Origin: Bacteroidales bacterium
GTDB taxonomy: Bacteria; Bacteroidota; Bacteroidia; Bacteroidales; GCA-2748055
Assembly (NCBI GenBank): GCA_029934875.1
Contig: JAOZLK010000055.1
Span: 1-13,145 of the forward strand
Direction: 5' to 3'
Length of the DNA: 13,145 nt
The notes beneath the pieces were generated by a model that was given only the letters and a program-made list of their open reading frames with translations, was not told the DNA's origin and made no database searches. Numbering within the stretch: position 1 is the first letter of the stretch; every line of letters starts with the position of its first letter. Shown piece by piece: positions 2,753 to 13,145 of this stretch. A program made the translations under genes and the position numbers.

Positions 2753-3235
2753 ATGAAAAAAGCTCCATTATTATTGTCCATTCTGCTTACATCCACACTG
2801 TTCTTCAATGCCAGGGCGCAATCAGATTCTGGTGTAAAAGGAGAGAAAATATTTTTAAAAAATGCCAATGAGTGTTTGCTTGTTATGGATCTGGCAGCCC
2901 GGGATATGTCGGTCAATGGGGTGGCTCTCGTTGCATTTATCCCTGGTGACACCACAACAGCCTGGACATCAAAAATGATGGTGGTCAGCGCCTTAAGGAA
3001 TAGTTCAGCCAACTATCTTGCCATCGCTTATTCCAAAGCTGCAGAAATGGCTGATACTTACAAGGATAGCGGGAGCGGCACCAGGGAGGTTCTGCATGGG
3101 GAATTTGGATACCAGGGGGGCATCATTAAAAAAGTCGACTCGGGTTATATATTGGCCGTCTTTTCCGGGGCTTCAGGAGAACAGGATGCTGAAATAGCCC
3201 AGGCAGGGGTAGATTGGCTAAATGAACAATTCTAG
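2753..3235 (+). CDS. Exported GlcG/HbpS-like (DUF336) heme-binding family protein
   Basis: A 160-residue protein with a Sec signal peptide (MKKAPLLLSILLTSTLFFNA, predicted cleavage after ARA at 20-22), so it acts in the periplasm or outside the cell. The mature part resembles the GlcG/HbpS (DUF336) fold: an AARDMSVNGVALVAF strand (48-62), a helix with SKAAEMADTYKDSG (94-107), and the family's most typical C-terminal block, a glycine-rich GYQGG (119-123) followed by FSGASGEQDAEIAQAG (137-152). Members of this family include heme-binding or heme-degrading proteins (HbpS of Streptomyces) and proteins of unknown role in glycolate loci, so a heme role is possible but not shown. It starts 25 bases after the flavoprotein gene and is probably co-transcribed with it. 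Its TAG stop shares four bases (CTAG) with the stop of the convergent activase gene, leaving no room for a separate terminator. Confidence 0.75.
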   Translation: MKKAPLLLSILLTSTLFFNARAQSDSGVKGEKIFLKNANECLLVMDLAARDMSVNGVALVAFIPGDTTTAWTSKMMVVSALRNSSANYLAIAYSKAAEMADTYKDSGSGTREVLHGEFGYQGGIIKKVDSGYILAVFSGASGEQDAEIAQAGVDWLNEQF

Positions 3236-6200
3236 ACCGTAGCTGACTGGATGTAGGGAACAATCACATCATTCATCCGGTCGCTGGTACCATCATAGGT
3301 AATGGTCACGATAGGAACCCCGGTAACTTCCTTAATTTTCTGCGTCATTGCTTCGGTAACCAATGCAGGGCAGCAGAAAGAAGGATTGGTCTGAACAAAA
3401 AGTGACACCTCGGGATAGTTCTCTACAATGTAGAAGATCTTTAAAAGGTTATCATAGGACTCACCCGAATGAAGTGGATCGATATTGAAATCAGCAAGGC
3501 TTTTCTCCAGTTCCCTGGGTCGGATCACTGGCGATGGGCCCAAAATACCAGCAAATGCTTTGTAGTACTTCTCATCCATAAATTTTAACAGGTTCATGAT
3601 GATCCGGTTCATCCCAGTCGTAACCAGTTCTCCCCTCTGATTGGCTCGCCTAAAAATATTTTCACTGGTCAACTTGGCGTAATCGTTATAAGGTGTAGCC
3701 AGAACCTCCCCCCCTGCCTCTTCAATGGAGCGAACCAGTTCCTGGTTCATAACATCATTGTCCCGCACGTACAAATCACCAAAGATGGCCACCATCGGTT
3801 TGCGCTCATTCTTTTCATATTCAATCTCTTCGAACATTCTGACCCCTTCTCTGATTGCATTATCAATGGAACGCCCACCAGAAAGGGCATCCACCAGGAT
3901 AGCGTGAACCTCTTCATTGACTTCGTCGGTCTGACCGTGCTGCAACTCATAGGGCCTGATCCGGCATGCCACCTTACGGAAGAGTCCACCAAGCATGTAT
4001 GCAAAATAGCTGTAATAGGTGATACTCAGAGACATCTCCCTGTGTGTCAGTTCTCCTGAATAGACCGCAGCTTTCTCCAGGCCCTTTCCGTAGTTTTCAA
4101 GAATCCGCTTGATGTAATATGGATACTGCCTTAAATTGCAGGTAGCCTTGCTCTCCATCATCCAAAGGATGCAAGAGGACGGGTCCATCTCGTGTCGCTC
4201 AATATAATCAATGTAGTCCTGCGCAACTACGTTTATGGGAAGGCATTGGCCCGTATTATGAACCATGCTTTTGCGGATGCCCAGCTCACTGGATTCCAGC
4301 AAACGGGTATCATATCCTCCCCTTCTCAGGTTGGCCTCGATCAGCGGGCTCACATACGTGTCCCAATTGGGTATTAGTAGTGTCTTTCCTCCTACATCCG
4401 TATCTACTTTGGGAAGCAGGCCCCCCAGGTCGGGATTAGCTTCCGGTACCCTTGAGAGTGCATGATTCCGGAATGATCTTAATGCGGCCTCGATCCTTGT
4501 TTCATAACCTGTATTGGAGTCGTGTTCATCGATCTGGATCACCAGGTAGGGTTTCCCGTAAAGGTTCATCAATTGCTTGAAATACTCCAGGATGAAAGAA
4601 TCAGGAGCACACTTGAATGCAGTAACGAGTACCGGGTAAAGATTTGGAGTTCTGCATGTCACCTCGGCGGCCCTCATGATGTTAGCAGCAAAGTGCCAGG
4701 GTATTTTTTTCAGCAAATTATTAAAAGCTTCATCTCTTTCCTGATCTATTTTCAACATCTCCTGAGAGAAGGCATTGACACCCATACCTGAAAAGATTCC
4801 GGGAATGCCCTTATTGAGTGTCTCTGAAAGCACCACATATGGCCTTCCCAACAGAACCACCGACACATCTCCCTTGTTGTCAAAACCATTCAGGAACATT
4901 TCCTCCATTTCCTCCTTCTGTCTTTCTGTCCCGTCACGCGCCATTTCCAGTGCTGCAGAAACATCGGATAAAGCAAGGTGATCAAAACCCACTCTTTTCA
5001 GTTCCTTCAAAAGAATCTTGCTGTTGCTCAGGCCGTTTTTGCTGAAATTGAGCATGGGACTGATCAACTTCTTTTTCATATCCTCACCCTCGAGAAAGGA
5101 AAGTGAAGCACTGTACTGGGTATAGTAACAGAAGTTCTGGTCATTTAAGCCCGGGCTTTCCCTGGCTTCCAGGTAGATTGGCATAAATACATAATCGCAA
5201 GTCTCGGCCATGTGGGTCACATGCCCGTACATGGCATCGATGGGGGCACAGAACTCCGCCCCTGCTATTTTCTTCCCCAGCTTCAATGAATCCCTAAAAC
5301 CTTCACTGGTCCTGATCCCGATCCCCAGCTCCCTGAAAAAGAGCCTCCAGAAGGCCTGATCCTCCACAAGGTGCAGGGTGGCTGGCAAACCAATGGACAC
5401 CTGGCCCCTGCTGCTTTTGCCCGGAACCGGATCGCATCTTTTCAAAAGCTGTTTTCGCAACCTCATCAGATCGAACTGCTTCCCTCCCAGACTCACAAAT
5501 TTTTTAGTCTCATAATCCCGTCCACACAGAAAGCCATAGGCAAGCTTCTCTCCATTTACACTTGCCACAGAGATTGTACACTTATTAAGGCAGAGTTCAC
5601 AAGCTTCTGTCTCCACCGGAATCTCACGCTTATGAAGATCCAGCCCCCTGAACTGAGTGCTCCCTTTATGCTCCTCCTTTAAAATCAGGGCGGTCCCCAG
5701 TGCACCGGTCAGGTGACATAGTGGAGATACATACAGGGATTTGCCCAGGCGCTGTTCAAAGGCCGCCACAAGGGCCCGGTTTTTGGCTGTGGCTCCCTGG
5801 AAGCAGACATGCTCCCCAATGTGCGCCTCACTGGCCACCTTCTTAAGGTAATTCTCTCGTACCGAGTGAATCACAGTGGCTAGCACCTCCTCAACGCTGT
5901 AACCCTGGCTCAGCAGCTGGTTGATATCACGCTCCATAAAAACAGTACAACGGTCGCTGGCCAGAGGCGCAGGACGGCCCATGGCCATATGCTCATAATC
6001 CTCCAGCTTAACACCCAGCCTGCCGGCCAGCTCCTCAATAAAACTACCGGTACCGGCAGCACAGACCGTATTCATGTGTGAGAAGCTTACCACCCCGTCC
6101 TTCATCTGGGTGAACTTGGCATCCTGTCCGCCAATTTCAATGATCGTATCGGTCTTCGGATTGAGTTCAAAAGCAGCCCTGGCATGGGCGGTTATCTCAT

Positions 6201-7440
6201 CCACATCCTGGTCGGCACCTACAATTCCGCCAATAAATTTACGGCCCGATCCTGTCGTTCCACAGGCCAGAATTTCAGGCTCGATGTCATGTTCAATCAT
6301 CAAGACATGACAGGACTCGAAAAGAGCCTGAACAGCCCTTAGAGGTTGTCCCAGAGTATAAGTGTAGAATCCAGCAACTGGCCTTCCATCTGCATCAATC
6401 AGCACCGACTTAGTACTGGTGGATCCCACATCAATACCAAGGTAAAACTGCCTTTTTCCTTCTGTCAGATCATGGTAGATATCCACCTGTACCTTCCCGT
6501 CGTGACTGGCTCTTACAGGCTTATAATCCCTCTGTGCAGCAGGCCCCTGCATGTCTGATGCAGACTCAGCCAGCTCCAGGGCCTCGAAGAAATATTCCTT
6601 CTCTCCCTGTTCTGCCAGGATCTTGCTCATATCCACAGGAGGCATAGATCTTCCTTCCTGTATTTCTTTTAACAATAAATGAGCAGCTCCCAGGACCGGC
6701 AAATAGGGAGATAAAGGGTGGGCTTCAATATCCTTCCCAATGATCCGCCTGAGGTGCCCTGCCACCGACTGGTTCATGGAAACTCCTCCGGTCATCAGGA
6801 TGGGAGAACCAGGGGCTGACTTATTGAATAATGTATCCGCAATGTTCTCTGCCAATCCCTTGCAAAGGCTGTCGCAAATGGCTTCGATGCTGTAGCCCCT
6901 TTGCTGGGCATGAATCAGGTCTGTTTTGGCAAAAACCGAGCACCTGGCTGCAATATCGGGAATGGCCGACTGGTTTTTTAGAGCTATACCAGAAAGGTGT
7001 GCAGTATCCTTAAGATTCAATCGCAGGGCTTGCTGATCCAGAAAACTACCGGTACCAGCTGCACATGAAGAACTATGACTGGTATGGGAATATGTTCCTT
7101 CTTCACTCAGCTCAAGGAGGAAGAACTTTTCTGCCCCCACATGAAGAATCGAACGGGCTTTCAGGCCCAGGTTAGAGACTGCCCCAATTAATGAAACCTG
7201 TGTGTCAAACACCCGGATCTGGCGATGAAACCCGGTTTTCCCAGACGGAGCAGCTATCCCCAGTATCTCTTCCGGCCTGAATCGACCCAGAATTTCATCC
7301 AGGGTTCTACGGATATCGCCTTGGTGCAAGGCGTAGTCCTGGCCAATCAGTTTGCCTTTCTGATCAATCCAGACCAGGGAAATGGACACTGACCCTATAT
7401 CAATACCAAGGATGATTTTATTTTGACTTTCCCCCTCCAT
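3232..7440 (-). CDS. Giant 2-hydroxyacyl-CoA dehydratase activase fusion: two BadF/BcrA ATPase domains, DUF2229 and HgdB-like C-terminus
   Basis: A 1402-residue cytoplasmic protein. Domain 1 (about 9-262) and domain 2 (about 332-588) are ASKHA ATPases of the BadF/BadG/BcrA/BcrD type, each with a phosphate loop (GIDIGSVS at 12-19, GIDVGSTSTK at 335-344). Each keeps the two cysteines that in homodimeric activases bridge one [4Fe-4S] cluster: C126 (CAAGTGSFLD) and C167 in domain 1, C460 (CAAGTGSFIEE) and C498 in domain 2. The GGQD motif is intact only in domain 2 (437-440); domain 1 has VGAEKF (101-106). A cysteine cluster follows (C614, C617, C621, C639), then a DUF2229-like region (about 680-990) with AEFCAPIDA (728-736). 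The C-terminus, about 1010-1402, resembles the dehydratase component HgdB: GQCLPINV (1064-1071) and NPSFCCPAL (1352-1360). Known activases use ATP to push one electron at very low potential into a dehydratase; this fusion family has, as far as I know, no defined substrate. No separate dehydratase subunits or CoA-pathway genes are nearby. The next upstream ATG (at 7450) is out of frame, supporting the chosen start. Confidence 0.9.
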   Translation of the reverse strand: MEGESQNKIILGIDIGSVSISLVWIDQKGKLIGQDYALHQGDIRRTLDEILGRFRPEEILGIAAPSGKTGFHRQIRVFDTQVSLIGAVSNLGLKARSILHVGAEKFFLLELSEEGTYSHTSHSSSCAAGTGSFLDQQALRLNLKDTAHLSGIALKNQSAIPDIAARCSVFAKTDLIHAQQRGYSIEAICDSLCKGLAENIADTLFNKSAPGSPILMTGGVSMNQSVAGHLRRIIGKDIEAHPLSPYLPVLGAAHLLLKEIQEGRSMPPVDMSKILAEQGEKEYFFEALELAESASDMQGPAAQRDYKPVRASHDGKVQVDIYHDLTEGKRQFYLGIDVGSTSTKSVLIDADGRPVAGFYTYTLGQPLRAVQALFESCHVLMIEHDIEPEILACGTTGSGRKFIGGIVGADQDVDEITAHARAAFELNPKTDTIIEIGGQDAKFTQMKDGVVSFSHMNTVCAAGTGSFIEELAGRLGVKLEDYEHMAMGRPAPLASDRCTVFMERDINQLLSQGYSVEEVLATVIHSVRENYLKKVASEAHIGEHVCFQGATAKNRALVAAFEQRLGKSLYVSPLCHLTGALGTALILKEEHKGSTQFRGLDLHKREIPVETEACELCLNKCTISVASVNGEKLAYGFLCGRDYETKKFVSLGGKQFDLMRLRKQLLKRCDPVPGKSSRGQVSIGLPATLHLVEDQAFWRLFFRELGIGIRTSEGFRDSLKLGKKIAGAEFCAPIDAMYGHVTHMAETCDYVFMPIYLEARESPGLNDQNFCYYTQYSASLSFLEGEDMKKKLISPMLNFSKNGLSNSKILLKELKRVGFDHLALSDVSAALEMARDGTERQKEEMEEMFLNGFDNKGDVSVVLLGRPYVVLSETLNKGIPGIFSGMGVNAFSQEMLKIDQERDEAFNNLLKKIPWHFAANIMRAAEVTCRTPNLYPVLVTAFKCAPDSFILEYFKQLMNLYGKPYLVIQIDEHDSNTGYETRIEAALRSFRNHALSRVPEANPDLGGLLPKVDTDVGGKTLLIPNWDTYVSPLIEANLRRGGYDTRLLESSELGIRKSMVHNTGQCLPINVVAQDYIDYIERHEMDPSSCILWMMESKATCNLRQYPYYIKRILENYGKGLEKAAVYSGELTHREMSLSITYYSYFAYMLGGLFRKVACRIRPYELQHGQTDEVNEEVHAILVDALSGGRSIDNAIREGVRMFEEIEYEKNERKPMVAIFGDLYVRDNDVMNQELVRSIEEAGGEVLATPYNDYAKLTSENIFRRANQRGELVTTGMNRIIMNLLKFMDEKYYKAFAGILGPSPVIRPRELEKSLADFNIDPLHSGESYDNLLKIFYIVENYPEVSLFVQTNPSFCCPALVTEAMTQKIKEVTGVPIVTITYDGTSDRMNDVIVPYIQSATV

Positions 7441-9198: not shown

Positions 9199-9213
9199 AA
9201 TGGCTTAGCCATT
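9199..9213. terminator. Short palindrome at the convergent gene ends
   Basis: AATGGC (9199-9204) pairs with GCCATT (9208-9213) around the loop TTA, and that loop is the complement of the TAA stop of the Crp/Fnr gene (9205-9207). It sits between the convergent ends of the hydrolase and regulator genes, where a bidirectional terminator is expected. The stem is only six base pairs and has no clear T-run on either side, so the terminator role is a weak inference. Confidence 0.28.
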
Positions 9214-9900
9214 TACTGAAACCGATTGAAGGCGATCGCCATCAATAACCTCAATGGTTTTACCCTCCAGTTGGATGATCTGGTCCCTTTCAAATTCTTT
9301 TAAAATTCGGATAGCACTGTCTTTAGACATGCTGGTATAGTCAGCTATATCCTGCCGGGATATTTCAGCCCCAATCTTGTTCGATTCATAGATTTCTCCA
9401 GAAAGATAGATTAGGGCATCGGCAATTCGTCCATGCATCTGCTTTTGACTCAGGCTAACCATTCGCTCGAGGGAGCGACCATAATTTCCGCTGCACAGTC
9501 TGACATATTCCTTTGCAAATTCACCGTTCCTTCCGATGACTTCCGTGAAGTTATTGGCATCGATAAAACAGACCAGGGTCTCCCGAATGGCAACAACACT
9601 ATAGCTGTACTTTCCATTATTATGGACTCCGGGCGCTCCCACCAGTTGCCATGGTTTCACAAAATCAAGAATGAGTTTTCGCTCATTGAACCCCTCCATA
9701 TACTTACGGGCAAATCCATCTATCACAGAAATGATCGATTTGGCAGCGATCCCCTGTTTAAGGATAACCTCTCCTTCATGAAAGCTGACCGAATAGCGGT
9801 CCCTGTTGACTATTTCCAACTCTTCCTTGGAAAGGTGCTTGAAGAGGGGAGCCTTTTGATTACACTTGTCACATCCTTCGCAAAGCTTCTTTTCATTCAT
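9205..9900 (-). CDS. Crp/Fnr-family transcription regulator with N-terminal cysteine cluster
   Basis: A 231-residue regulator. Residues about 18-135 form the cyclic-nucleotide-binding-type beta-roll (LFKHLSKEELEIV, then HEGEVILKQG at 41-50 and VISVIDG-like turns). A long dimerisation helix follows (about 136-165), then a winged helix-turn-helix with the recognition region at about 178-202 (EISRQDIADYTSMSKDSAIR). The N-terminus has C7, C10 and C13 (CEGCDKC). A further cysteine, C111, lies about as far downstream as C122 does in E. coli FNR, and C136 is also present. This suggests a [4Fe-4S] oxygen or redox sensor, although the C-x2-C-x2-C spacing differs from the C-x2-C-x5-C of E. coli FNR. 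The cyclic-AMP-contacting residues of CRP are not obvious. It is transcribed divergently from the cytochrome operon, with an FNR-type dyad between them, so it is the natural candidate regulator of that operon. The alternative is a Crp/Fnr protein without a cluster. Confidence 0.88.
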   Translation of the reverse strand: MNEKKLCEGCDKCNQKAPLFKHLSKEELEIVNRDRYSVSFHEGEVILKQGIAAKSIISVIDGFARKYMEGFNERKLILDFVKPWQLVGAPGVHNNGKYSYSVVAIRETLVCFIDANNFTEVIGRNGEFAKEYVRLCSGNYGRSLERMVSLSQKQMHGRIADALIYLSGEIYESNKIGAEISRQDIADYTSMSKDSAIRILKEFERDQIIQLEGKTIEVIDGDRLQSVSVNG

Positions 9901-9958: not shown

Positions 9959-9970
9959 TGATCTATATCA
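9959..9970. promoter_or_regulatory. FNR-type operator, TGAT-N4-ATCA
   Basis: TGATCTATATCA has both perfect inner half-sites of the FNR consensus TTGAT-N4-ATCAA, with the outermost base mismatched on each side (C in place of T, C in place of A). It lies in the 205-base region between the divergent Crp/Fnr gene and the cytochrome operon, centred about 64 bases upstream of the regulator's ATG and about 98 bases upstream of the predicted operon transcription start. An imperfect second dyad, TTGATATTTATGCAA, lies at 9931-9945. The site match is seen directly; binding by the neighbouring regulator, including possible autoregulation, is inference. Confidence 0.5.
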
Positions 9971-10105: not shown

Positions 10106-10483
10106 ATGAGAAGAGTGATAATAATATTGACAGGCTTGGTGATTGCAATCCTTGCGGCATGCGACAAATATACGATTCCCACCCCCCCCTGTGAGGAAGG
10201 AGCAACAGATGTAAGTTATTCGGGGGATATACAACCCATTTTCGATAACAAATGTGTCTCCTGCCACTCCGGGGACAAAGCGCCCGACCTCAGGAAAGGC
10301 TGGTCTTATGATGAACTTATCAATGGAGTAGGTTCCACTGGAGAACCTTATGTGGCCGAACCGGAATTTGCATGCGAAAGCATACTATACCAGACTGTCT
10401 CAGGGGGGCACTATGCAGAGACCTCTGATGACGAAATACTGCAAATCCTGGGATGGATCCAGGAAGGTGCCCAGGATAACTAA
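10106..10483 (+). CDS. Monoheme c-type cytochrome lipoprotein
   Basis: A 125-residue lipoprotein. Its signal peptide ends in a lipobox (LAAC, lipidated C19), so the mature protein is membrane-anchored, in this phylum often at the outer membrane. One heme c attachment site, CVSCH, is at 50-54, in the context DIQPIFDNKCVSCHSG typical of small Planctomycete-type or related cytochrome c domains. The C-terminus has the usual SDDEILQILGWIQEGA helix (107-122). The methionine that usually gives the distal heme ligand ahead of that helix is absent: the only methionine is the initiator. H102 (GGHYAE) stands near the expected place. C29 and C90 could form a disulfide. It is the first gene of a four-gene operon, 17 bases before the DUF5777 barrel gene. 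The likely role is electron transfer at or near the outer membrane with the barrel and the multiheme cytochrome downstream. Confidence 0.82.
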   Translation: MRRVIIILTGLVIAILAACDKYTIPTPPCEEGATDVSYSGDIQPIFDNKCVSCHSGDKAPDLRKGWSYDELINGVGSTGEPYVAEPEFACESILYQTVSGGHYAETSDDEILQILGWIQEGAQDN

Positions 10484-10500
10484 TAACAAAATTTACAATC

Positions 10501-11373
10501 ATGAAAAGATACCTTCAATTAACCACCTTGGCAAGCATCCTTGCCTTTATGTCTTCGGGAAATCTCCTTGCTCAGGAAAGCGAAGCTGTATACCCTATAT
10601 TTGAAACCCTGACCCTGATCGACAACCAGACCACCTTTAATCCATATAAAGGTGCGTTGAATCTGGAAATCCAGCACCGTTTTGCACAGATTAAAGAAAT
10701 ATCTGATATTTATGGAATCTTCGGAAGTGCCAATACCCGGATAGGGCTCTCCTTCGGAATCACTGATAAAATCATGGTAGGGCTGGGAACCACCCGCAGC
10801 TATATGCAGCAGGACCTGAATTGGAAATACTCCATCCTAACACAGAAAACCAGTGGAATGCCCATATCACTCTCCTACTTCGGAAATGCCGTACTGGATG
10901 CAAGGGACTCAAAATATTTCGGGCCGGAAGATGAGTACAAATACATCTACCGCTTCTCCTACCTGAACCAGTTGATCGTAGCTAGCAAGATTGGCGAAAA
11001 AATTGGCATCCAGGTGGCTCCTACCTTTGTCTACTACAATGCAGTTCCGGAAGGATATCGTAACGATAACTATTCAGTCGATGTAGGAGCAAAATTTCAG
11101 GTTTTTGGTTTCCACTCCATCATTTTGGAATATGACCAGCCACTGGTTCAGCCTCAGGATATGGTTGACGATGCCGGGAATGTGGAAATCGAAGGGAAAA
11201 CCATTTATCCCAACCTTGCTTTTGGTGTCGAAATCGGAACCAGCACCCACTCTTTCAGGGTATTTGTATCCAACTACAACAACATTGTAAAAAACAGGAG
11301 TGTTGCTTTCAACGACCGTAGCATTAAGGAAGGCGATTTCCAGTTTGGTTTCAACATCTCCATCAGATTCTAA
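10501..11373 (+). CDS. DUF5777-family outer-membrane beta-barrel protein
   Basis: A 290-residue protein with a Sec signal peptide (cleavage after LLA at 22-24, mature start QESEAV). The rest alternates short amphipathic strands and turns, such as TRIGLSFGITDKIMVGLGTT, GIQVAPTFVYYN and HSIILEYDQPL, and ends in strand residues with a terminal phenylalanine (FQFGFNISIRF). That ending is a normal signal for barrel insertion into the outer membrane. I recognise the early FETLTLIDNQTTF and LNLEIQHRFA segments as typical of DUF5777 proteins. There are no heme motifs. The gene lies between a heme lipoprotein (17 bases upstream) and a heptaheme cytochrome (2 bases downstream), so it is almost certainly co-translated with them. 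An outer-membrane port or sheath for electron or substrate transfer is inferred from this context; the family has no established biochemical role that I know of. Confidence 0.83.
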   Translation: MKRYLQLTTLASILAFMSSGNLLAQESEAVYPIFETLTLIDNQTTFNPYKGALNLEIQHRFAQIKEISDIYGIFGSANTRIGLSFGITDKIMVGLGTTRSYMQQDLNWKYSILTQKTSGMPISLSYFGNAVLDARDSKYFGPEDEYKYIYRFSYLNQLIVASKIGEKIGIQVAPTFVYYNAVPEGYRNDNYSVDVGAKFQVFGFHSIILEYDQPLVQPQDMVDDAGNVEIEGKTIYPNLAFGVEIGTSTHSFRVFVSNYNNIVKNRSVAFNDRSIKEGDFQFGFNISIRF

Positions 11374-11375
11374 AA

Positions 11376-12347
11376 ATGAGCACCTCAACAAAAATTCTGA
11401 GCTTCGTTTTCCTGGCTTTGGGCCTTAGTCTTTTGGCCCAGTCAGAGGATACCCTGAAAATTAAACCCTCTTACCACGAGGTCAACTACTTTGTGGAGGA
11501 TAACGAAGCCTGCCTTAAATGTCATGGCGAAACAAAATATATCCTGGAAGATCCCGAAAATGAAAGGATTTCGATAAAGAGGATGGGTCCATGTAAGGTA
11601 GTCGACCGCGACAAATTCTATACATCGGTTCACAAGTCATTCAGCTGTACCGACTGTCACTCTGGCGATTTTATGGACTTTCCACACAGCATTGAATCCA
11701 GGTTCGAAGAGAAGCTTCTGTGCATGGATTGCCACGGTTATGATGAGACTTATGCTCAGTACCATTTTGAGGGAATCGAGACAGAATTTACCGAAAGCGC
11801 CCACAATAAGGAAGGTTTTTCTTGCTGGAGCTGTCACGATCCCCACTCCTACAAGGCCTTCATGAGAAATGCTGATGACCTTGCAGATGCCATACTCTAC
11901 GATAATAGCATGTGTCTGAAATGCCATGCCGATTTCAGCGAATTCTCCATGTTGACTGACAGAGAAGAGATTGTACTCGTGGAAAGTCATGACTGGTTAC
12001 CTAACCAGGCTGCTCACTTTGCAAAAATAAGGTGCATTGAGTGCCACACGGAAATCAATGATACGATTTTGATTGCACATAAAATCATGCCAAAAGCCTC
12101 GGCTGTGAAAAACTGCACCGAATGTCACTCAAAAGATTCCAGGCTCATGCATACACTCTATAAGTTCGAGAGCCTGGAACAACGAAAAGGTGGATTTGTA
12201 AATAGTATCATGATCAACAATTCCTATGTGATCGGAGCCAATCAAAATATACTGCTCAACCGCCTGAGTTTACTTGTATTTGGAATGACCTTGCTGGTTA
12301 TAGTCTTTCACACCTATTTGCGTATTAAAAATCAGAAAAAAAGCTGA
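11376..12347 (+). CDS. Membrane-anchored heptaheme cytochrome c (CbcA-like composition)
   Basis: A 323-residue protein with an N-terminal signal sequence (about 1-22) and seven CXXCH heme c sites, at 46-50, 91-95, 116-120, 150-154, 180-184, 220-224 and 247-251. Additional histidines (H34, H86, H104, H130, H143, H157, H205, H214, H235, H259) can supply distal ligands, consistent with low-potential bis-His hemes. C73 is a lone non-heme cysteine. A single membrane helix near the C-terminus (about 295-315, LNRLSLLVFGMTLLVIVFHT) with a basic tail anchors the heme domain on the periplasmic side of the inner membrane. The next gene, one base downstream, is a cytochrome b, so the two should form a quinol-oxidising bc-type complex. 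That pairing matches what I recall of CbcBA of Geobacter sulfurreducens (heptaheme CbcA and b-type CbcB). Sequence orthology is not shown; a NrfH/NapC-type role is less likely because those are smaller and tetraheme or pentaheme. Confidence 0.88.
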   Translation: MSTSTKILSFVFLALGLSLLAQSEDTLKIKPSYHEVNYFVEDNEACLKCHGETKYILEDPENERISIKRMGPCKVVDRDKFYTSVHKSFSCTDCHSGDFMDFPHSIESRFEEKLLCMDCHGYDETYAQYHFEGIETEFTESAHNKEGFSCWSCHDPHSYKAFMRNADDLADAILYDNSMCLKCHADFSEFSMLTDREEIVLVESHDWLPNQAAHFAKIRCIECHTEINDTILIAHKIMPKASAVKNCTECHSKDSRLMHTLYKFESLEQRKGGFVNSIMINNSYVIGANQNILLNRLSLLVFGMTLLVIVFHTYLRIKNQKKS

Positions 12348-12348
12348 C

Positions 12349-12969
12349 ATGGTATCTAAAAAATTATACCTCTACCCCATATGGATTCGTCTCTGGCACG
12401 CCATCAACGCCCTGACCTTCCTCTTATTAGTTGCGACCGGAATAAGCCTTCATTATGCTTCGGTCGATAGCAGTCTGATCCCTTTCCAGATTTCCGTGGT
12501 AATTCATAATATTTGTGCCATTATCCTCACCATTAACTATGGCGTTTTTGTCATAGGAAATCTGCTAACCGGAAATGGAATGTTTTACAGCAAGTGGAGA
12601 AAAAACCTATGGCCCAAACTCTGGAAACAGTTTGTGTTTTACGCCGTTGGAATTTTTAAAGGAGAGCCCCACCCCTTCCCCATCACCAAGAAACAAAAGT
12701 TCAATCCCCTGCAAAAAGTATCCTACGTATTTGCCATGTATTTTGGCATGCCCCTGTTGATTATTTCCGGCTTTGGGCTCATGTTCCCTGAGAAAATTTC
12801 CAATGCCATATTTAATATCAGCGGACTATTGTTTTATGATGTCCTGCATATAATCGTTGGTTTTGTACTTTCTATTTTCCTGGTAATCCACCTCTATACA
12901 TGTACCCTGGGCGATAAACCGGGTACCCTGTTTAAGAGTATGATTAATGGCTACCATGAGGAGCATTAA
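12349..12969 (+). CDS. Cytochrome b membrane subunit (b561/hydrogenase cytochrome b type)
   Basis: A 206-residue integral membrane protein of the Ni/Fe-hydrogenase/thiosulfate-reductase cytochrome b type. It has four membrane helices at about 18-38, 48-72, 124-146 and 160-184. Candidate heme b ligands are H17 (RLWHAIN), H53 (VVIHNIC), and the pair H167 and H181 in helix 4 (DVLHIIVG, LVIHLYT), an arrangement suited to two hemes b across the membrane. The opening PIWIRLWHAINALTF is typical of the family. It starts one base after the heptaheme cytochrome stop, indicating strict co-translation. Its inferred task is to oxidise menaquinol and pass electrons to the heptaheme protein, or the reverse. 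No catalytic molybdopterin, hydrogenase or thiosulfate reductase subunit is present, so the electron acceptor must be another protein, perhaps the lipoprotein and barrel at the head of the operon. Confidence 0.88.
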   Translation: MVSKKLYLYPIWIRLWHAINALTFLLLVATGISLHYASVDSSLIPFQISVVIHNICAIILTINYGVFVIGNLLTGNGMFYSKWRKNLWPKLWKQFVFYAVGIFKGEPHPFPITKKQKFNPLQKVSYVFAMYFGMPLLIISGFGLMFPEKISNAIFNISGLLFYDVLHIIVGFVLSIFLVIHLYTCTLGDKPGTLFKSMINGYHEEH

Positions 12970-13096: not shown

Positions 13097-13145
13097 ATGA
13101 ACCTGAATCTGAATCCTCTTCAAGGGCTAATGCGAGCCCGAGTTT
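13097..13145 (+). CDS. Possible start of a further gene, cut by window end
   Basis: An ATG at 13097 opens a frame that stays open to the window end (MNLNLNPLQGLMRARV). It is preceded by four CTGAA repeats or near-repeats between 13082 and 13112 and contains an inverted repeat GGGCT/AGCCC (13124-13128 and 13135-13139). The opposite strand is also open from the window end to a stop at 13035-13037, so strand and reality are undecided. Sixteen codons are too few for a family call. Confidence 0.18.
   Translation, partial: MNLNLNPLQGLMRARV

Follow-up and report, generated by a model that had tools for sequence, protein, structure and literature searches.

The DNA analysed here, hereafter the window, is a whole contig of 13145 bases (JAOZLK010000055.1) from the draft genome of a Bacteroidales bacterium (GCA_029934875.1; 749 contigs, 88% complete), and its forward strand carries four closely packed genes which a reading of the sequence alone (the original prediction) had taken for an operon encoding a compact trans-envelope electron conduit. 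The first gene (10106–10483) encodes a 125-residue one-heme c-type lipoprotein with the lipobox LAAC, a CXXCH motif at residue 50 and a predicted distal heme ligand, H102; the second (10501–11373) encodes a 290-residue outer-membrane-type barrel of the DUF5777 family; the third (11376–12347) a heptaheme c-type cytochrome of 323 residues, with seven CXXCH motifs, a signal-peptide-like start and one C-terminal membrane helix; and the fourth (12349–12969) a cytochrome b561-type subunit of 206 residues (Pfam Ni_hydr_CYTB, E = 3.7e-24) with four hydrophobic stretches. The open reading frame list places these genes, with intergenic gaps of 17, 2 and 1 bases, as the original prediction had them, and Pfam matches, motifs and hydropathy bear out the proposed heme lipoprotein, DUF5777 barrel, heptaheme cytochrome and cytochrome b. 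Although the four genes stand, the operon is longer than first thought, with the initial 49 bases of a fifth gene (13097–13145) on the same strand before the contig ends.

The operon set recurs in relatives and is conserved beyond chance, since 66 of the 80 named loci, chosen from 398 as those most similar to the query, hold all four genes in order, and a DUF5777 gene lies upstream of the heptaheme gene, on the same strand and within 2.5 kb, at 34 of 41 heptaheme places, defined as matches above 100 bits and found in 40 genomes of an even draw of 198 from the order. At the seven other places, DUF5777 was found farther away on the same contig (two), on other contigs only (four) or not at all (one). 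Among the named loci, the barrel and the cytochrome b are each present in 77, and 69 have a CX2CH lipoprotein 5′ of the barrel, two further lipoproteins having CX4CH. TAA occurs inside the match at three of the 41 heptaheme places, and TAG at one, which is in two pieces. The synteny is not limited to the source genome, a restriction that would have spoken against the original prediction. The heptaheme is rare outside the order: a separate sample of 198 genomes across the phylum yielded matches above 100 bits in three genomes besides the source genome, and DUF5777 in 82.

The inner-membrane half of the proposed electron route is well supported. The heptaheme cytochrome has a single hydrophobic helix at its C terminus (residues 292–310), and, besides the CXXCH motifs, histidines 86, 143, 157, 205, 214 and 235 are invariant in 50 aligned rows, with H104 kept in more than 90%, which by this alignment would be enough for seven bis-histidine c hemes. 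Two further residues at or within the C-terminal helix, H312 and R316, are likewise invariant and could form part of the interface with the b subunit, in which H17, H53, H167 and H181 are kept in 17 of 17 rows, at what we take to be the b-heme ligand positions of FdnI-type proteins. The histidines are therefore conserved as expected for two b and seven bis-histidine c hemes, and the inner-membrane pair of the original prediction is supported. The CbcA protein of Geobacter reportedly has seven hemes and is said to be defined by these together with a membrane anchor; the heptaheme cytochrome has both, and its partner is a diheme-type b subunit with four invariant histidines. PMC12307469 and PMC6148476 describe CbcBA as a cytochrome of b and c type that sits in the inner membrane and serves acceptors of low potential. 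The likeness drawn here is one of architecture and consists in adjacent cytochrome b and multiheme c genes and a membrane anchor, whereas the pair described here has a conserved link to a barrel of the outer-membrane type and to a lipoprotein with one heme. The NCBIfam family nearest to the b subunit is PRK15006 (thiosulfate reductase cytochrome B), with 183.9 bits against a cut-off of 204; with this score under the cut-off and no molybdopterin subunit seen in the window, assignment as a thiosulfate reductase subunit (PhsC) was rejected. Solved structures sought by sequence gave only partial matches to the heptaheme cytochrome, the best being 28pb. Two PF01292 proteins were found in the source genome, both in the operon, and its other PF14522 matches include an ActA-like protein beside an ActB-like one, presumably an alternative complex III. 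A further multiheme protein of the source genome (L215:1421-2470), NapC/NrfH-like in appearance, lies beside an oxidoreductase of the GMC type.

The operon extends past the contig end, because the last 50 bases of the window are identical to bases 2–51 of L032 (contig C23 of the same genome) and relatives show the same gene order: the fifth gene goes on in C23 (L032:3-2801), and on unbroken relative contigs (L034, L037, L039 and L043) its homologue directly follows the cytochrome b gene, with a 142-residue frame in between in L058. The product, of 932 residues, has 19 CXXCH motifs and Pfam C7, MtrC/F-like and Ni_hydr_CYTB domains, the last at residues 596–747; five hydropathy peaks follow the c domain (616, 673, 790, 826 and 909), and we infer a sixth near 710–730. 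This fusion, with a multiheme c and a cytochrome b-type domain in one chain, resembles in architecture an enlarged CbcL of Geobacter, for which PMC9129911 gives six helices, two b hemes and nine c hemes. In contrast to these nine, the fusion described here has 19 CXXCH motifs, and its gene directly follows a separate cytochrome b/heptaheme pair. A fusion gene lies downstream in 12 of the 80 named loci (8 whole, 2 cut by contig ends and 2 as short pieces only), and the order sample holds 16 places, 9 of them with DUF5777 within 4.5 kb, the source copy being counted as a miss as it is split over two contigs. Four genomes (G262, G330, G374 and G390) have the barrel and the fusion with no heptaheme match above 100 bits, and 29 of 61 near genomes matched the heptaheme at E 0.001, G013 through the large fusion only. 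The two short pieces are L065:11671-11979 (103 residues), not at a contig end, and L064:10143-10466 (108 residues). In a record titled Chlorobiota, a heptaheme gene (L097:9905-10948) is accompanied by a larger cytochrome b frame and an upstream 19-heme fusion, with no barrel detected by the A2 profile.

Further on in C23, the other strand encodes a Pfam-less protein (OB-like by eye), a 4-heme c554-like protein, a double-rhodanese lipoprotein and a 10-heme lipoprotein, followed by a second CRP-type gene. The lipoprotein with two rhodanese domains, which we take to recall ExtH of Geobacter, adjoins the 10-heme lipoprotein (L032:4373-6767). The extHIJKLMNOPQS cluster of Geobacter encodes a rhodanese, a porin, 5-, 10- and 12-heme c-type cytochromes, a Rieske protein and a cytochrome b (PMC5877670, PMC6148476). 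Both clusters combine inner- and outer-membrane parts, a porin-like barrel and a nearby rhodanese lipoprotein, whereas no Rieske protein is encoded among the genes read here, the DUF5777 barrel is smaller and of another family, and the lipoprotein has one heme. This composition raises an alternative, that the cytochrome b/heptaheme pair feeds other periplasmic or surface cytochromes, such as the 10-heme and 4-heme proteins, while the barrel and the one-heme lipoprotein are co-regulated helpers (a porin with a redox sensor, or a response to envelope stress). It would explain why the 10-heme, 4-heme and double-rhodanese genes lie after the 19-heme gene in C23, why relatives of the 10-heme and rhodanese genes, found together in 4 of the 80 loci, are always within 5 kb of the heptaheme gene, and why the barrel and a cytochrome of the lipoprotein family occur elsewhere without multihemes in view. 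We nevertheless consider it unlikely, given that the barrel gene stays upstream of the heptaheme gene (34 of 41 places) while other neighbours change, and that the gap between the two, stop codon included, is 5–25 bases in 48 of 74 measured pairs, though at least 83 in 20.

The outer-membrane half of the route is only partly supported. The barrel matches DUF5777 (PF19089) over the full length of the family (positions 1–247 of 247; 212.3 bits, cut-off 23.1, E = 8.8e-63), and AlphaFold2 gave a confident 12-strand model (pLDDT 90.7, pTM 0.83), which among solved folds comes closest to narrow channels such as KdgM and NanC (VIA-align); a search for solved relatives by sequence found none credible. 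Barrels of 12 strands are far narrower than those filled by multiheme cytochromes, and in the model the DUF5777 barrel looks too narrow for an electron wire of a known kind. The original prediction of a trans-envelope conduit is therefore not supported for the barrel: one heme by itself should be too little to bridge the outer membrane, unless the barrel also carries a cofactor. Two histidines, H59 and H250, are invariant across 121 aligned barrels of both the operon type (91 rows, some genomes counted twice) and a second type, encoded beside YceI, and a minimal conduit could be imagined in which the lipoprotein heme and a cofactor held by these histidines pass electrons outside. A cytochrome of the lipoprotein family does lie near the barrel in both genomic settings. 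Also, a search for MtrB/PioB barrels (TIGR03509) gave no match at E 0.001 in the source genome and four weak matches, none over the cut-off, among 61 genomes, the search being confined to this family and not extended to OmaB, ExtB, ExtF, ExtI or OetI, so that another exit would be needed if extracellular acceptors are breathed. However, strand positions in the model and the usual barrel topology would put H59 at the outer end of strand 1 and H250 in a periplasmic turn, and the two should not share one heme; a bis-histidine heme between them is unlikely. That the lipoprotein has one CXXCH and no known export signal, and that the heptaheme cytochrome ends in a membrane helix, also tells against a porin-cytochrome conduit, but not clearly, as C23 also encodes a 10-heme lipoprotein. 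The locus resembles MtrCAB and other porin-cytochrome systems in encoding a barrel and a cytochrome lipoprotein together, but differs in its small 12-strand barrel, single heme and lack of a multiheme surface lipoprotein among the four genes. An MtrB/PioB-type conduit elsewhere in the genome was likewise rejected on the 61-genome result, in which other porin-cytochrome families were not searched. Loss of the porin ExtI affects reduction of selenite and tellurite and not of Fe(III) citrate (PMC5877670). Because a barrel among cytochromes thus need not be an electron conduit, we favour a channel through which a small acceptor gains access to the lipoprotein heme, give this reading an even chance, and regard the minimal conduit as quite improbable.

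Divergently from the operon, on the reverse strand (9205–9900), lies a gene for a 231-residue CRP/FNR-family regulator (Pfam cNMP_binding and HTH_Crp_2). It has the cysteines C7, C10, C13 and C111, which we take to be the iron-sulfur sensor pattern of oxygen-sensing FNR, and would, by this pattern, bind an iron-sulfur cluster. Across 17 aligned regulators C10 is invariant and C13 and C111 are kept in at least 90%, while some distant regulators have no C7; a homologue lies within 5 kb of the heptaheme gene in 44 of the 80 named loci. An FNR-like box, TGAT-N4-ATCA (9959–9970), starts 147 bases 5′ of the first gene, so that both the four-cysteine pattern and an FNR-like target are present. In the window alone such a box is not rare, occurring in 76 of 200 shuffles. 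Across the 18 regulator–operon gaps with a divergent regulator in view (from related genomes and hence not independent), it is exact in eight, against 0.17 expected under single-letter shuffling, and in five of these it starts 147–150 bases 5′ of the next gene; TGAT-N4-GTCA occurs at 150–151 bases in three further gaps. A 6-heme gene comes first after the box in L055, L057 and L058.

The best reading of these data, about as probable as not, is an oxygen-controlled, anaerobic route from menaquinol to the outer membrane that ends in a redox-coupled channel, not a proven wire. The cytochrome b/heptaheme pair would oxidise menaquinol in the inner membrane, as would the 19-heme c/cytochrome b fusion, a second and larger module. 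Electrons would then cross the periplasm through the hemes of the heptaheme cytochrome or the fusion to the one-heme lipoprotein at the inner face of the outer membrane. Its partner, the DUF5777 barrel, would be a channel, narrow and selective, through which a small redox-active substrate reaches the heme or the product leaves; candidate substrates are an oxyanion, a metal complex and an electron shuttle. The step from the lipoprotein to the outside is the weak one. Flow in the opposite direction, in which the heptaheme/b pair reduces menaquinone and the electrons come from oxidation, at the outer membrane, of an external donor such as Fe(II), sulfide or a partner cell, seems the least probable of the alternatives. 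Reversal of CbcBA has been proposed for Seep-SRB2 partners of methane oxidisers (PMC10553843), and the record title of one near relative (L063) suggests an origin in Guaymas sediment, but titles of other relatives read like lakes, fens and reactors. Moreover, an acyl-CoA dehydrogenase relative, present in 28 of the 80 named loci and no more than 5 kb away in 24, hints at a supply of quinol that needs disposal; fatty-acid oxidation may thus feed this electron route.

Several observations weigh against the preferred route from menaquinol to a channel. No lipoprotein was found beside the barrel in nine of the 80 loci, four at contig ends, three barrel-less and two with a barrel. The lipoprotein carries no known surface-export signal, but such signals were defined in cultured Bacteroidota, so its placing at the inner face is weak. 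The 19-heme fusion seems to be decaying in some relatives (L064, L065) and can be lost. Neighbours vary among acyl-CoA dehydrogenase, NrfD (a relative in 25 of the 80 loci, its iron-sulfur partner in 29) and the fusion, and a single acceptor is therefore unlikely; the inner-membrane pair seems to serve different metabolisms while the barrel stays. As to the original prediction itself, the heptaheme gene adjoins 34 of the 114 DUF5777 places of the order sample; five others are beside the 19-heme fusion gene without a heptaheme and 75 beside neither, which partly bears out a doubt raised with the original prediction, that such barrels usually stand without cytochromes.

Wider stretches were read around 18 DUF5777 genes of other genomes or copies, 14 of them in the phylum sample and 4 in the order sample. 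A cytochrome c belonging to the same cluster as the lipoprotein lies close to the barrel gene in 16, with the heme motif CX4CH in two (L191 and L193), YceI is near 15 and a tRNA_anti-like OB protein occurs in 8; within view (at most seven open reading frames each side), no protein had more than three CXXCH motifs. YceI is missing in three of the four order-sample loci (L196, L198 and L199), where "YceI-type" is a label from the tree. This DUF5777–cytochrome c–YceI set thus places the same barrel and lipoprotein families side by side, and differs from the operon in having YceI and no large multihemes in view, and in a Met-Pro stretch rather than a histidine near the heme. In the H102 column of the lipoprotein, 71 operon-type rows have H in 57, M in 11, Q in two and S in one, whereas all 20 YceI-type rows (from 19 of the 30 top-scoring DUF5777 loci of the neighbour survey; retained if shorter than 170 residues, with a heme motif and near the barrel) have Met-Pro near this position, with Met not in the exact column. 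The difference in predicted ligands between the two types is a new observation. If these residues are the distal ligands, the heme would have His/Met ligation in YceI-type proteins and His/His ligation in most operon-type ones; a His/His heme usually has the lower potential. In a tree of 107 barrels (midpoint root, long branches flagged, genomes with the fusion but no heptaheme left out), a branch of length 0.85 (100/100) has the 73 operon-type rows all to one side, and with this root one YceI-type row, L171, is placed beside the operon type. Since the company of the barrel elsewhere lacks multihemes and the tree is split in this way, the barrel–cytochrome pair looks, from gene neighbourhoods and phylogeny, like an older unit taken up once by the multiheme operon.

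A broader proposal, which we put forward tentatively and think may well be wrong, is that DUF5777 and the one-heme lipoprotein form a phylum-wide, undescribed redox-coupled outer-membrane channel, with the YceI type serving aerobic chains through a predicted His/Met heme of higher potential and the Bacteroidales type, captured once by an FNR-controlled multiheme operon and mostly using a His ligand of lower potential, serving as the outlet of anaerobic menaquinol respiration. If so, it would, combined with the 19-heme fusion, whose length could on paper let it extend far across the periplasm, make a complete inner-to-outer route without an MtrAB-type conduit and would give DUF5777 a role. One cytochrome family also seems to take a different heme ligand when its respiratory partner differs, which makes a natural experiment. 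A compact operon with parts for both membranes, its heptaheme gene found in 40 of 198 genomes of the order, offers a marker and a testable target. In the open-licence literature, we found little on how Bacteroidota pass electrons to their cell surface, and no paper naming DUF5777, none on CbcBA with a heptaheme and, by title, nothing on point on YceI with a barrel.

Other genes were seen around the operon and its relatives. In L103 (3108-8336), genes for ETF alpha, an iron-sulfur protein and acyl-CoA dehydrogenase lie upstream of the lipoprotein gene, and in L079 (11558-14726), genes for a DsrO/TtrB-like iron-sulfur protein, an NrfD protein and an unnamed 291-residue protein with no Pfam match directly follow the cytochrome b gene. 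Elsewhere in the window, a 160-residue protein with no Pfam or NCBIfam match at E 0.001 is encoded at 2753–3235. At 502–2727 lies a gene for a 741-residue protein that joins a CrtI/amine-oxidase-like flavoprotein (residues 12–494) to a ferredoxin-reductase-like FAD/NAD module (about 523–740), and at 3232–7440 one for a BadF/BcrA-type CoA-enzyme activase with DUF2229, of 1402 residues.

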